From assembly GCA_028288595.1 (NCBI GenBank), contig JAQBNK010000048.1, forward strand, positions 1-60,209: a stretch of 60,209 nucleotides of DNA. The letters are read 5' to 3'. A program made the position numbers and the translations under genes. The stretch's first letter is position 1, and each line of letters begins with the position of its first letter. A model generated the notes under the pieces. That model did no database searches. It had not been told where the DNA came from and saw only the letters and a list, made by a program, of their open reading frames with translations. Shown piece by piece: positions 24,610 to 29,114 of this stretch. The DNA comes from Chitinophagaceae bacterium (GTDB lineage: Bacteria > Bacteroidota > Bacteroidia > Chitinophagales > Chitinophagaceae).

Positions 24610-25692
24610 ATGGCAAATAAAATCAGTGCTTTTTTCTTTCCCGGTATTTTTCTACTTTTTGCACTCTCCGCAAATAGCCAGGTAACTTACAACTATGAAA
24701 TAAAACAATTTGCGGTTTCGCTTTACAATTCGTTTGATAAGATGCAAAATATTTCGGGAAGACTTGATTTTAATGATACATCAAGACTTAAATGGAACAA
24801 TCTTCCGGTAGGAATGAGACCAAGGGCAGGAACAAGTATAGGCAACATGACTGACGACCAAAGAAAACTTCTTCATCGTATACTTTCTGCTTCATTAAGT
24901 TCACAAGGCTATTTAAAGACAACCAGCATAATGCACTTAGACGATTTGCTGAATCGCTATTATGATAGTCTTTTTTACAAGAAAGAAATTGACGACAACA
25001 CATATACGCTCGTAAAATCGTTGTTATGGTCACATAAAAATTACTACTTCGCCTTTTTTGGACAACCAACAGATGGTATCTGGGGATATAAATTAGAGGG
25101 ACACCATTTATCGATCAATTTCACTTTCGTTAATGACAAGCTTTCAGTAACTCCATTTTTCATTGGTACGGATCCGGCCGAATATCAAAATTCTGAGTAT
25201 GCAGGCTGGCGTGTTCTCGGGCAAGAAGAAGATTTAGGTATTAAGCTCATACAGCTATTAACACCTGCTCAGCAAAAGAAAGCAACAATGAGTTCTGCAG
25301 TTCCGAAAGATATAATAACAGCAGCAGAAAGTGGAAAACGCTTAGTTGACAATTGGGGTATTTTAGGAACTGAAATGACTGATAAACAAAAAGCCATTTT
25401 GCAATATATAATTCGGGAGTTTGTATTTAACCTTGAGTATGATAAAGCAGTTATTGAGTACAATAAAATTGTAAAGGCAAGGATTGATAAAATTTATTTT
25501 GGCTGGATTGGGGAATATGATGAAACGAAGCCGCATTATTATGTTCTAAATGGACCAACATTTATTATTGAGTTTGACAATAATGGCGGACCAAGAAATG
25601 GTGCGAATCATATCCATGCTATTTGGAGAGAAAAAGGTAATGAATATGGTGAAGATGTATTAAAAAATCACTACCTGCTGGAAAAACATTAA
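24610..25692 (+). CDS. Secreted DUF3500 family protein
   Basis: A 360-residue protein with a Sec signal peptide (residues 1-23, ending ANSQV). The mature part matches DUF3500: LKWNNLPVGMRPRAGTSIG near the start, the block WGYKLEGHHLSINFTFVNDKL, and the C-terminal NGPTFIIEFDNNGGPRNGANHIHAIWRE. Conserved His residues in GHHLSINFT and ANHIHAIWR suggest a metal or catalytic site, but the reaction is unknown. Stand-alone in the array. Confidence 0.82.
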   Translation: MANKISAFFFPGIFLLFALSANSQVTYNYEIKQFAVSLYNSFDKMQNISGRLDFNDTSRLKWNNLPVGMRPRAGTSIGNMTDDQRKLLHRILSASLSSQGYLKTTSIMHLDDLLNRYYDSLFYKKEIDDNTYTLVKSLLWSHKNYYFAFFGQPTDGIWGYKLEGHHLSINFTFVNDKLSVTPFFIGTDPAEYQNSEYAGWRVLGQEEDLGIKLIQLLTPAQQKKATMSSAVPKDIITAAESGKRLVDNWGILGTEMTDKQKAILQYIIREFVFNLEYDKAVIEYNKIVKARIDKIYFGWIGEYDETKPHYYVLNGPTFIIEFDNNGGPRNGANHIHAIWREKGNEYGEDVLKNHYLLEKH

Positions 25693-26995: not shown

Positions 26996-27418
26996 ATGAA
27001 AAAGCTGATCCTTGTTTTACCGGCGCTGCTTTTGTTTACATCCTTTTTATCTGCCCAATCAGCGCAACCAAATTATAAGGTTGTGTTCGACATTACGAGT
27101 AAAGATACTCTCGACCATAAAAATGTAATACGCTGGGTTAATGAGATATCAAAAGGTGATCCCGATGCAAAGATGGAAGTAGTTTTTTATGGCCAGTCAC
27201 TCGACCTCGTAGTAAAAGATAAATCAATAATGCCGGGTATAATAAGCAGTCTTGCGGGCAACAAAAAAGTTTGTTTCAAAGTTTGTGAAGTGGCCATGAA
27301 AAATCATAACATCGATAAAAGCCAATTAATCGCCGGAGTGGAAACAGTCCCCGATGGTATCTATGAAATAATTACCAAACAAAGGCAGGGCTGGGGATAC
27401 ATTAAGGCCAGCCACTAA
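26996..27418 (+). CDS. Secreted DsrE-like family protein
   Basis: A 140-residue protein when started at the Met of MKKLILVLPALLLFTSFLSA, which gives a clean Sec signal peptide; an ATG seven codons upstream is less likely. The mature domain (YKVVFDITSKDTLDHKNVIR, then KMEVVFYGQSLDLV, VCEVAMKNH and AGVETVPDGIYEIITKQRQG) has the DsrE/DsrF-like fold used by sulfur-carrier proteins. A cysteine pair (VCFKVC) precedes the 'EVAM' helix. It lies four bases before the TsdA-like cytochrome gene, hence the same transcript. I infer a periplasmic role in sulfane-sulfur handling; direct evidence is lacking. Confidence 0.78.
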   Translation: MKKLILVLPALLLFTSFLSAQSAQPNYKVVFDITSKDTLDHKNVIRWVNEISKGDPDAKMEVVFYGQSLDLVVKDKSIMPGIISSLAGNKKVCFKVCEVAMKNHNIDKSQLIAGVETVPDGIYEIITKQRQGWGYIKASH

Positions 27419-27422
27419 GCAA

Positions 27423-28400
27423 ATGGCACATTTAAAAGAACATTGGTTTCCTTACCTCGTAGGACTGGTGGTGCTTATTGTTATTTTAGAAAAAATGCAT
27501 TCCTGTAACGATAACAATTATAAAACCGTTCAGTTTGAGAGTGCATCTTTAGTGCCTGATATCAATGACCTTTCTGATTCTGAAGCAGATGACCTTATCC
27601 GTTATGGAAGAGAATTAATTCTGAATACTTCAAAATATTTCGGCCCACATGGAACCATAGCTCATATTACCAATGGCCTTAATTGCGGCAACTGTCACCT
27701 TGAATCGGGAACAAAATCTTTCACTAATAATTTTCTGGCGGTAGCCTCAACTTATCCCAGGTTCAGGGAAAGGAGCGGCTCAATGGAATCTGTAGAATTC
27801 CGGGTTAACGATTGCATGCAAAGAAGTCTTAACGGAAAAACAATTGACAGCCTCAGTAAAGAAATGAGAGCCATGGTTAGTTATATTAAATGGACAGGAA
27901 AAAATATAAGCAAAGAAAAAAAAGCCGATGAAGCAGGAAGCAAAGACATTGCTTTTTTAAACAGGGCCGCCGATCCCGAAAAAGGTAAAATAATTTACAC
28001 CGCAAAATGCATTACCTGTCACATGGCAAATGGCGAAGGTGTCGTATCACCTGATTCTGCCGGTTATAAGTATCCTCCTTTATGGGGGAACAATAGTTAT
28101 GCGGTAAGTGCAGGCATGTACAGGCTTACCAAAATTGCGTCATTTATAAAAAATAATATGCCCAACGGCGCATCCTTCACAAGCCCACAATTAACCGACG
28201 AAGAAGCATGGGATATAGCTGCGTATATCAACACACAGCCACATCCCAAAAAAATCTTTGCATACGACTGGCCCGTGCTTAGCACCAAGCCTGTAGATTA
28301 TCCATTCGGACCTTACGCTGACAGGTTCAATGAAAAGCAACATAAATACGGACCTTTCCAGCCCATTAAAAACGCAAAAAAAGTCATTAAGCAGTTATAA
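27423..28400 (+). CDS. Dihaem cytochrome c, thiosulfate dehydrogenase (TsdA)-like
   Basis: A 325-residue membrane-anchored cytochrome c. One N-terminal transmembrane segment (YLVGLVVLIVILE) leads to two haem domains. Haem 1 motif is CGNCH at 88-92, with a later VNDCMQRSLNGK in which Cys131 sits where TsdA-type enzymes use Cys as an axial ligand. Haem 2 motif is CITCH at 196-200. The C-terminal SFIKNNMPNGASFTSPQLTDEEAWDIAAYI block also matches the TsdA/SoxA-related family, which couples two thiosulfates to tetrathionate. It follows the DsrE-like gene by four bases. Family membership is clear; substrate is inference. Confidence 0.8.
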   Translation: MAHLKEHWFPYLVGLVVLIVILEKMHSCNDNNYKTVQFESASLVPDINDLSDSEADDLIRYGRELILNTSKYFGPHGTIAHITNGLNCGNCHLESGTKSFTNNFLAVASTYPRFRERSGSMESVEFRVNDCMQRSLNGKTIDSLSKEMRAMVSYIKWTGKNISKEKKADEAGSKDIAFLNRAADPEKGKIIYTAKCITCHMANGEGVVSPDSAGYKYPPLWGNNSYAVSAGMYRLTKIASFIKNNMPNGASFTSPQLTDEEAWDIAAYINTQPHPKKIFAYDWPVLSTKPVDYPFGPYADRFNEKQHKYGPFQPIKNAKKVIKQL

Positions 28401-28426
28401 TCTTTTTACGTTTTTACATCAAAATA

Positions 28427-29114
28427 TTATCCGGCAAAAATATAAGAGCAGCCATGTTCCTGTGCCCTGCCCAGTGCCCAAACCCCTGATGGCACTGGCT
28501 GCACACCAGGTAACAAACCAGACAGCCAGTCTTTTTTGACTTCCCCAGCATCCATTTTCATTTGTCCAGCCACTGCTGCACTATATACTGTCATGGCGAC
28601 GTCGCATACGGCGAACATCACACCACTTTGCCTGTAGTTCATTGATCCCTATTGGGACGGCGCCGAACCCTGGTAATTTATATTCGCCTTCTTTTGGTTG
28701 CCAGAAAGGGTTTCTTACGCATGGTGCTTTTGTAAGAGGGTCATCCGTCTTAAACATTTCACCGAATTTATATTTTGCCCATATGCGATGTTCGAAAGCA
28801 TAAGGTATCGCATCATGCCGCAATACAACCACTACGCTGGAATCTTTTTCGTTGGTGCCTGTAGCCTGGTTTGTCAGCAAAAAGACTCTTGGCCATGCAA
28901 AGGGCATCATCTCATGCGGCCGTGTAGCATCAAACACAACACGGTGCTTACCTTTTATTTGATTGAACCATTCGTCCGCATCATTTGGTTCACTAAAAAG
29001 CTGCGGTGCAGCCTTGATAGATGCAGGAACACTTAGCAAACCGATTGAAGCTGCACCTGCCGCGAATTTTCCCAGGAACTCACGACGGTGGGTGGTTGAT
29101 TTTTTGTTGTTCAT
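28427..29114 (-). pseudogene. Tat-exported DsrE-like protein, interrupted by a one-base frameshift
   Basis: The frame opens at 29114 with a twin-arginine signal (THRREFLGKFAAGAAS, arginines 10-11) and runs on to INELQA, then shifts. The C-terminus continues in another frame as SGVMFAVCDVAMTVYSAA... to GRAQEHGCSYIFAG, stopping at 28427. Removing one T from the TTT at 28627-28629 (AAA on the coding strand) restores one 228-codon frame exactly. The restored protein has the same DsrE-like pattern as the gene at 26996 (VVVVLRHDAI, FAVCDVAM, PGVQPVPSGVWAL). It ends 26 bp from the convergent cytochrome gene. It is either a true recent pseudogene or a base-call error. Confidence 0.75.

Follow-up and report, generated by a model that had tools for sequence, protein, structure and literature searches.

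Two small exported proteins and a membrane-anchored dihaem cytochrome are encoded side by side in a Chitinophagaceae bacterium, and the locus raises the question of whether they act together on thiosulfate or tetrathionate outside the cytoplasmic membrane. The three genes were found where a sequence-only reading had placed them, at 26996–29114 of the window, i.e. the whole stretch of 60,209 nucleotides that was analyzed. As a whole, that interpretation was partly supported: the gene set stood, but the gene for the Tat-exported protein as a single intact frame did not. The reading favored here, at roughly even odds (a probability of about 0.5), is that exported cysteine proteins of the DsrE fold partner the TsdA cytochrome in an extracytoplasmic thiosulfate/tetrathionate module.

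The locus and the identity of its proteins

The first gene (26996–27418, + strand) encodes a Sec-type DsrE-family protein of 140 aa, whose hydrophobic N-terminus ends in AQ and which has a cysteine at position 97. Four bases separate its stop from the start of the gene for a 325-aa dihaem cytochrome of the TsdA kind with an N-terminal membrane anchor (27423–28400, + strand). This pair is convergent with the Tat protein gene (28430–29114, − strand), whose predicted Tat signal was recovered as the twin-arginine motif RREFLG. The signal peptides of the module proteins were assigned by eye. A hydrophobicity test at the N-terminus was positive for all 59 DsrE ORFs, even that of L066, which has no clear signal by eye, so the test discriminates nothing. 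Promoter-like sites showed no excess (7 versus 7.2 expected), and five terminator-like sites were observed against 2.8 expected. Outside the module, a secreted DUF3500 protein of unassigned function is encoded at 24610–25692 (277 bits).

The Sec protein scored 29.2 bits against the Pfam DsrE family (PF02635), above the curated cut-off of 22.7. Searching the PDB by sequence identified 2pd2 (ST0148) and 1l1s (MTH1491), and Cys97 aligns with a cysteine in both. The predicted model was confident (pLDDT 93.1) and superposes on 1l1s at 1.3 Å. Two alignments, of 26 and 33 rows, show this cysteine without exception; the pattern used to find it missed 3 of the 59 DsrE ORFs.

The called frame of the Tat gene (28581–29114, − strand) holds about 162 residues in frame followed by an out-of-frame tail, and it parallels its relatives only up to residue 162–163, where its matches in 23 of 117 family genomes all stop. 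The frame shift falls near 28620, and relatives carry the gene intact. A profile search of the bacterium's own genome found the last 65 residues as a second piece in another frame (28430–28624, − strand), carrying the DsrE-position cysteine and the motif PSGVWA. Intact relatives are mostly 219–241 aa long, with one called at 277. An assembly or sequencing error and a real lesion look alike here and cannot be told apart. Because of the frame shift, the third part of the module may not work in this organism, which weakens the module reading.

Sequence searches of Pfam and the PDB gave no match for the window Tat protein, its DsrE-like part being out of frame and diverged, and assessing the fold therefore required structure prediction and relatives with an intact gene. 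PF02635 matched neither the window copy nor the relatives L072, L086 and L068. The model of another relative, L092 (residues 48–233; 78 rows), had a pLDDT of 94.8 and a pTM of 0.90. VIA-align superposed it on 2pd2 with Z 14.2 and 1.4 Å over 107 residues; the top ten rows were all DsrE-type (Z 14.2 to 9.3), and the next scored 5.1. In Foldseek, DsrE-type chains likewise headed the ranking (E 2.6e-5); its superposition of the model on 1l1s was poor (rmsd 6.5 Å). The DsrE fold proposed for both small proteins was thus recovered in confident models, for the Tat protein by way of a relative.

The DsrE-position cysteine was present in all 97 pattern-readable members of a set of 101 Tat ORFs, in which some genomes are counted twice. 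Three of the four unreadable ORFs show the cysteine on visual inspection, and the last of the four is the window's own broken copy. The RR motif was found in 99 of the 101, the two exceptions being truncated at contig ends. Profile–profile comparison of the Sec and Tat families gave E 6e-9, cysteine on cysteine. In fold and aligned cysteine, both small proteins resemble the DsrE/DsrF-like family (MTH1491, ST0148, YchN, DsrEFH and DsrE3A). Unlike that family they are exported, and the Tat protein differs further in its long insertions and its missing Pfam match.

The cytochrome fell on the TsdA rather than the SoxA side in sequence searches, as had been anticipated. Solved TsdA chains were matched at E of about 5e-36 to 3e-35 (best 4.8e-36) and 5lo9, which we take to be a TsdBA fusion, at 9.7e-28, whereas SoxA was matched at 1.7e-4. 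The Pfam SoxA-TsdA_cyt-c domain, common to SoxA and TsdA and in this respect a likeness to the Sox system (SoxXA-YZ-B), scored 41.5 bits. Two CxxCH motifs occur in the window protein, and exactly two in each of 86 full-length ORFs. The haem motifs, Cys131 at haem 1 and Met246 at haem 2 were invariant in 30 rows, and the VNDC cysteine singled out in the sequence-only reading was likewise invariant among 30 aligned relatives. These features, with the Cys ligand region of haem 1, are shared with TsdA, the dihaem thiosulfate dehydrogenase/tetrathionate reductase of Allochromatium vinosum and Campylobacter jejuni.

The residue preceding the haem-2 methionine was Asn in 78 of the 86 ORFs, Ser in three, Ala in two and Thr in one, with two unread; Lys, as in A. 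vinosum, was found in none of those read. In the accessible text of PMC5146829, C. jejuni TsdA has Cys138 as the haem-1 ligand and Asn254–Met255 at haem 2, and acts as a tetrathionate reductase; the Asn ahead of the haem-2 Met is thus a likeness to that enzyme. The cytochrome differs from known TsdA proteins in its N-terminal anchor, its DsrE-fold partners and, in Larkinella, a fusion to a transporter. Such TauE-like transporter–TsdA fusions were seen in two Larkinella genomes (L126:7743–9476, 577 aa; L157:7774–9489, 571 aa), the TauE-like part being named by eye from its resemblance to TauE. In genome G084 a TsdA gene, too, is split across two frames (L080:9246–10237).

Conservation and linkage of the three genes

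Conservation was assessed in 117 genomes of the same family (Chitinophagaceae), the bacterium's own genome included. DsrE was present in 29 at an E threshold of 1e-3, TsdA in 48 at one of 1e-10, and the Tat gene in 23. All 23 Tat genomes carry TsdA (one-sided Fisher p 2e-11, kinship ignored), as do 28 of the 29 DsrE genomes (p 5e-13, one-sided, kinship again ignored). Among genomes holding both members of a pair, Tat and TsdA lie within 5 kb of each other in 20 of 23, DsrE and TsdA in 18 of 28, and DsrE and Tat in 12 of 20. For genomes of 4–5 Mb, we infer that an unlinked pair would show such proximity in far fewer than 1%.

All three genes occur together, at this 5-kb spacing, in 12 of the 117 genomes. 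Eleven of these are genomes other than the window's own, so the pairing is kept beyond this strain and the association is above chance. Several gene orders were found. TsdA and Tat are convergent with DsrE behind in L072–L074; on a single strand, the order is Tat–TsdA–DsrE in L077–L080 and DsrE–Tat–TsdA in L075 and L076.

A scan of species genomes with the Tat protein returned 322 relatives, of which the best 80 were retained. Judged by title, these are all from Bacteroidota, and they overlap partly with the 117 family genomes. Among these best 80 of 322 loci, TsdA flanks the Tat gene in 60, DsrE in 31 and both in 25, and 47 of the 60 Tat–TsdA pairs share a strand. With at least 2.5 kb available on both sides, TsdA was found at 51 of 67 loci. 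Neither gene flanks the remaining 14 of the 80, which weakens the module reading. The Tat family is sparse across the phylum (7 of 296 genomes), and no relatives were found in the plasmid collection searched.

Two of the loci without TsdA (L133:4633–6804 and L140:1709–3889, of Mucilaginibacter type or kin) carry beside the Tat gene a protein of about 725 aa with one CxxCH, which by eye resembles a PQQ-type dehydrogenase. In 13 of the best 80 loci of 322, e.g. L101 and L104, the module has a gene for haem A synthase (CtaA) in its vicinity. Such a neighbor might hint that the electrons end at an aerobic oxidase.

Relation of the Tat family to NF052225

At an E threshold of 0.01, the NCBIfam model NF052225, 'thiosulfate dehydrogenase' (ThioSDhTetH), matched 16 of the 17 Tat-family members scanned, with the similarity spanning about 125–145 residues. 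The best match, L068, reached E 5.2e-11 and 42.4 bits; second among the ten listed was a protein with 28.9 bits. As no member comes near the model cut-off of 300 bits, the Tat proteins are relatives of NF052225 and not members. L068 is also the most diverged Tat protein (41% to L069), and its gene lies on a different contig from TsdA in genome G086 and does not adjoin it. The sole non-matching protein of the 17, L069, is identical to the modeled L092. The low best score, the divergence and placement of L068 and the identity of L069 with the model all weaken the module reading.

The window Tat copy, without its C-terminal part, did not match NF052225, and neither did three Sec DsrE proteins (the window protein at a threshold of E 0.1, L083 and L089 at one of 0.001). 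Used as a whole-genome query, the model matched 1 of 148 genomes and 0 of 14 controls, so the link to the Tat family rests on scans of the proteins themselves. Nine single alanine changes in L068 were scored against NF052225. Replacing C167, at the DsrE position, cost 5.0 bits, and the other eight changes shifted the score by −1.8 to +3.8, suggesting that the NF052225 enzymes probably share the DsrE-position cysteine.

NF052225 is taken here to represent AFE_0042 of Acidithiobacillus ferrooxidans, a haem-free protein whose fold and cysteine were judged through this profile alone. The part of PMC2754497 available lists AFE_0042 among Tat-signal proteins and places a solute-binding protein gene next to it, and that of PMC6335251 places its gene with doxDA and a rhodanese gene. 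A solute-binding protein gene likewise follows TsdA and a diverged DsrE in two relatives (L071:10600–11505, assigned as SBP_bac_11, and L089:10079–10987, assigned by resemblance of its start). The Tat family resembles NF052225 in sequence, in the cysteine preferred at the DsrE position and in the Tat signal listed for AFE_0042; it differs in scoring far below 300 bits and in having genes tied to a TsdA cytochrome. On this similarity, the Tat protein may be distantly related to a second, little-understood type of thiosulfate-oxidizing enzyme. With this relation and the frame shift in the window, the picture given by the sequence-only reading is changed.

These results bear on a rival explanation, namely that the cytochrome alone is the enzyme, as a thiosulfate dehydrogenase or a tetrathionate reductase, while the DsrE-fold proteins are non-catalytic accessories that clear or move reactive sulfane sulfur. 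Of the 48 TsdA genomes, 25 are without the Tat gene, which also weakens the module reading. Purified TsdA enzymes work without a DsrE partner in the portion of PMC5146829 available, and the Asn before the haem-2 Met, the C. jejuni state, would permit reductase activity. This explanation is possible but doubtful, given that TsdA is present in every Tat genome and in all but one of the DsrE genomes of the family, and that the Tat proteins resemble a thiosulfate dehydrogenase model.

Sulfur genes nearby and possible roles

Genes for TauE, YeeE-type, SoxB-like, type III SQR, DsrC, DsrE2, rhodanese and metallo-beta-lactamase/rhodanese (persulfide dioxygenase-like) proteins flank some relatives, and the thiosulfate/tetrathionate chemistry suggested earlier would fit these neighborhoods. 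Among the best 80 of 322 Tat loci, TauE was found in 11, a YeeE pair in 11 and a SoxB-like gene in 2. Co-occurrence of YeeE and TsdA in the 117 genomes showed no excess over chance (p 0.08), which again weakens the module reading. In the bacterium's own genome, the queries for the SoxB-like protein (E 1e-30) and YeeE (E 1e-15) matched nothing, nor did that for SQR at E 1e-3 in a search run without a control. This too weakens the module reading, and perhaps only the module core is present in this organism.

Operon-like runs of TauE–YeeE–YeeE–TsdA–SoxB-like–DsrE genes were found in L081:7792–14275 and L082:7530–15113, the latter with additional rhodanese genes after TauE. They would accord with a Sox-like route lacking SoxYZ, in which TsdA loads thiosulfate onto an exported DsrE cysteine, the SoxB-like protein removes sulfate and the YeeE-type protein imports the remaining sulfur. 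Of the 12 genomes with a SoxB-like gene and TsdA, 7 have the two no more than 5 kb apart, adjoining in some relatives as a likeness to the Sox system. SoxY, whose absence is the point of difference, was matched in 0 of 117 family genomes by a model positive in 47 of 395 genomes of the phylum. A full Sox system was dropped from consideration on this count. SoxZ was also matched in 0 of 117, by a model whose control stayed silent.

Nevertheless, the Sox-like route is unlikely. Of the 8 genomes with a SoxB-like gene and DsrE, only 2 have the two no more than 5 kb apart; the gene flanks Tat in just 2 of the best 80 of 322 loci, and its query found no match in the bacterium's own genome. The protein itself is closest to a solved SoxB (E 3.8e-28), with a nucleotidase next at 1.3e-21, and scores 258.7 bits against a SoxB cut-off of 550. 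TsdA with a lone SoxB has moreover been published already and explained by tetrathionate as an intermediate, in the part of PMC12345210 available. That thiosulfate is a misleading label and the substrate a different one, e.g. an organic thiol or other sulfur compound, is improbable: thiosulfate is a substrate that we infer, and some Tat genes adjoin genes with no visible sulfur role, but the TsdA haem ligands are fully kept, TauE is fused to TsdA and inorganic-sulfur genes lie near several relatives.

The module reading is favored by the DsrE folds, the retained TsdA residues, the linkage, the NF052225 similarity, the nearby sulfur genes and the TauE–TsdA fusions. The computed results comprise the folds, the conservation of cysteines and haem residues, the motifs for export, the linkage of the genes and the sulfur genes near some relatives; a substrate, a direction, a division of labor and contact between the module proteins are proposed on top of these. 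At its Cys-ligated haem, the TsdA-type cytochrome would turn thiosulfate into tetrathionate or the reverse, and via the His/Met haem it would pass electrons to or from the respiratory chain. In the Tat protein, the DsrE-position cysteine would probably be the site where thiosulfate is bound or oxidized, the electrons going to the cytochrome, and the Sec DsrE protein would probably carry the product as a Cys-S-thiosulfonate. DsrE3A of Metallosphaera, which takes thiosulfate from tetrathionate onto a cysteine and hands it to TusA according to the accessible text of PMC4175335, is a precedent for cysteine-bound thiosulfate on such proteins.

The individual parts belong to known kinds, and TsdA in Bacteroidetes bins has already been published (PMC7887784, in the part available). 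Searches of open-access papers yielded no description of a module of TsdA with exported DsrE-fold proteins, nor of a relation between the Tat family and thiosulfate dehydrogenase. The recurrence in Bacteroidota of a haem enzyme with two exported DsrE-fold proteins suggests that thiosulfate is handled outside the cell membrane by a route so far undescribed.

A bolder proposal is held only tentatively. In a thiosulfate route of Bacteroidota, exported DsrE-fold cysteine proteins might take the place of SoxYZ, or might be a second subunit of a thiosulfate dehydrogenase and feed electrons to the TsdA cytochrome; by extension, the AFE_0042-type enzyme might be a DsrE-fold cysteine enzyme, with such a cytochrome possibly its natural acceptor. 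A DsrE fold, a conserved cysteine and a linked dihaem cytochrome would yield a hypothesis for the fold, active residue and electron acceptor of that enzyme. If the module reading is true, DsrE-type sulfur chemistry would be located outside the cytoplasmic membrane, and the Chitinophagaceae would gain a thiosulfate route without SoxY.
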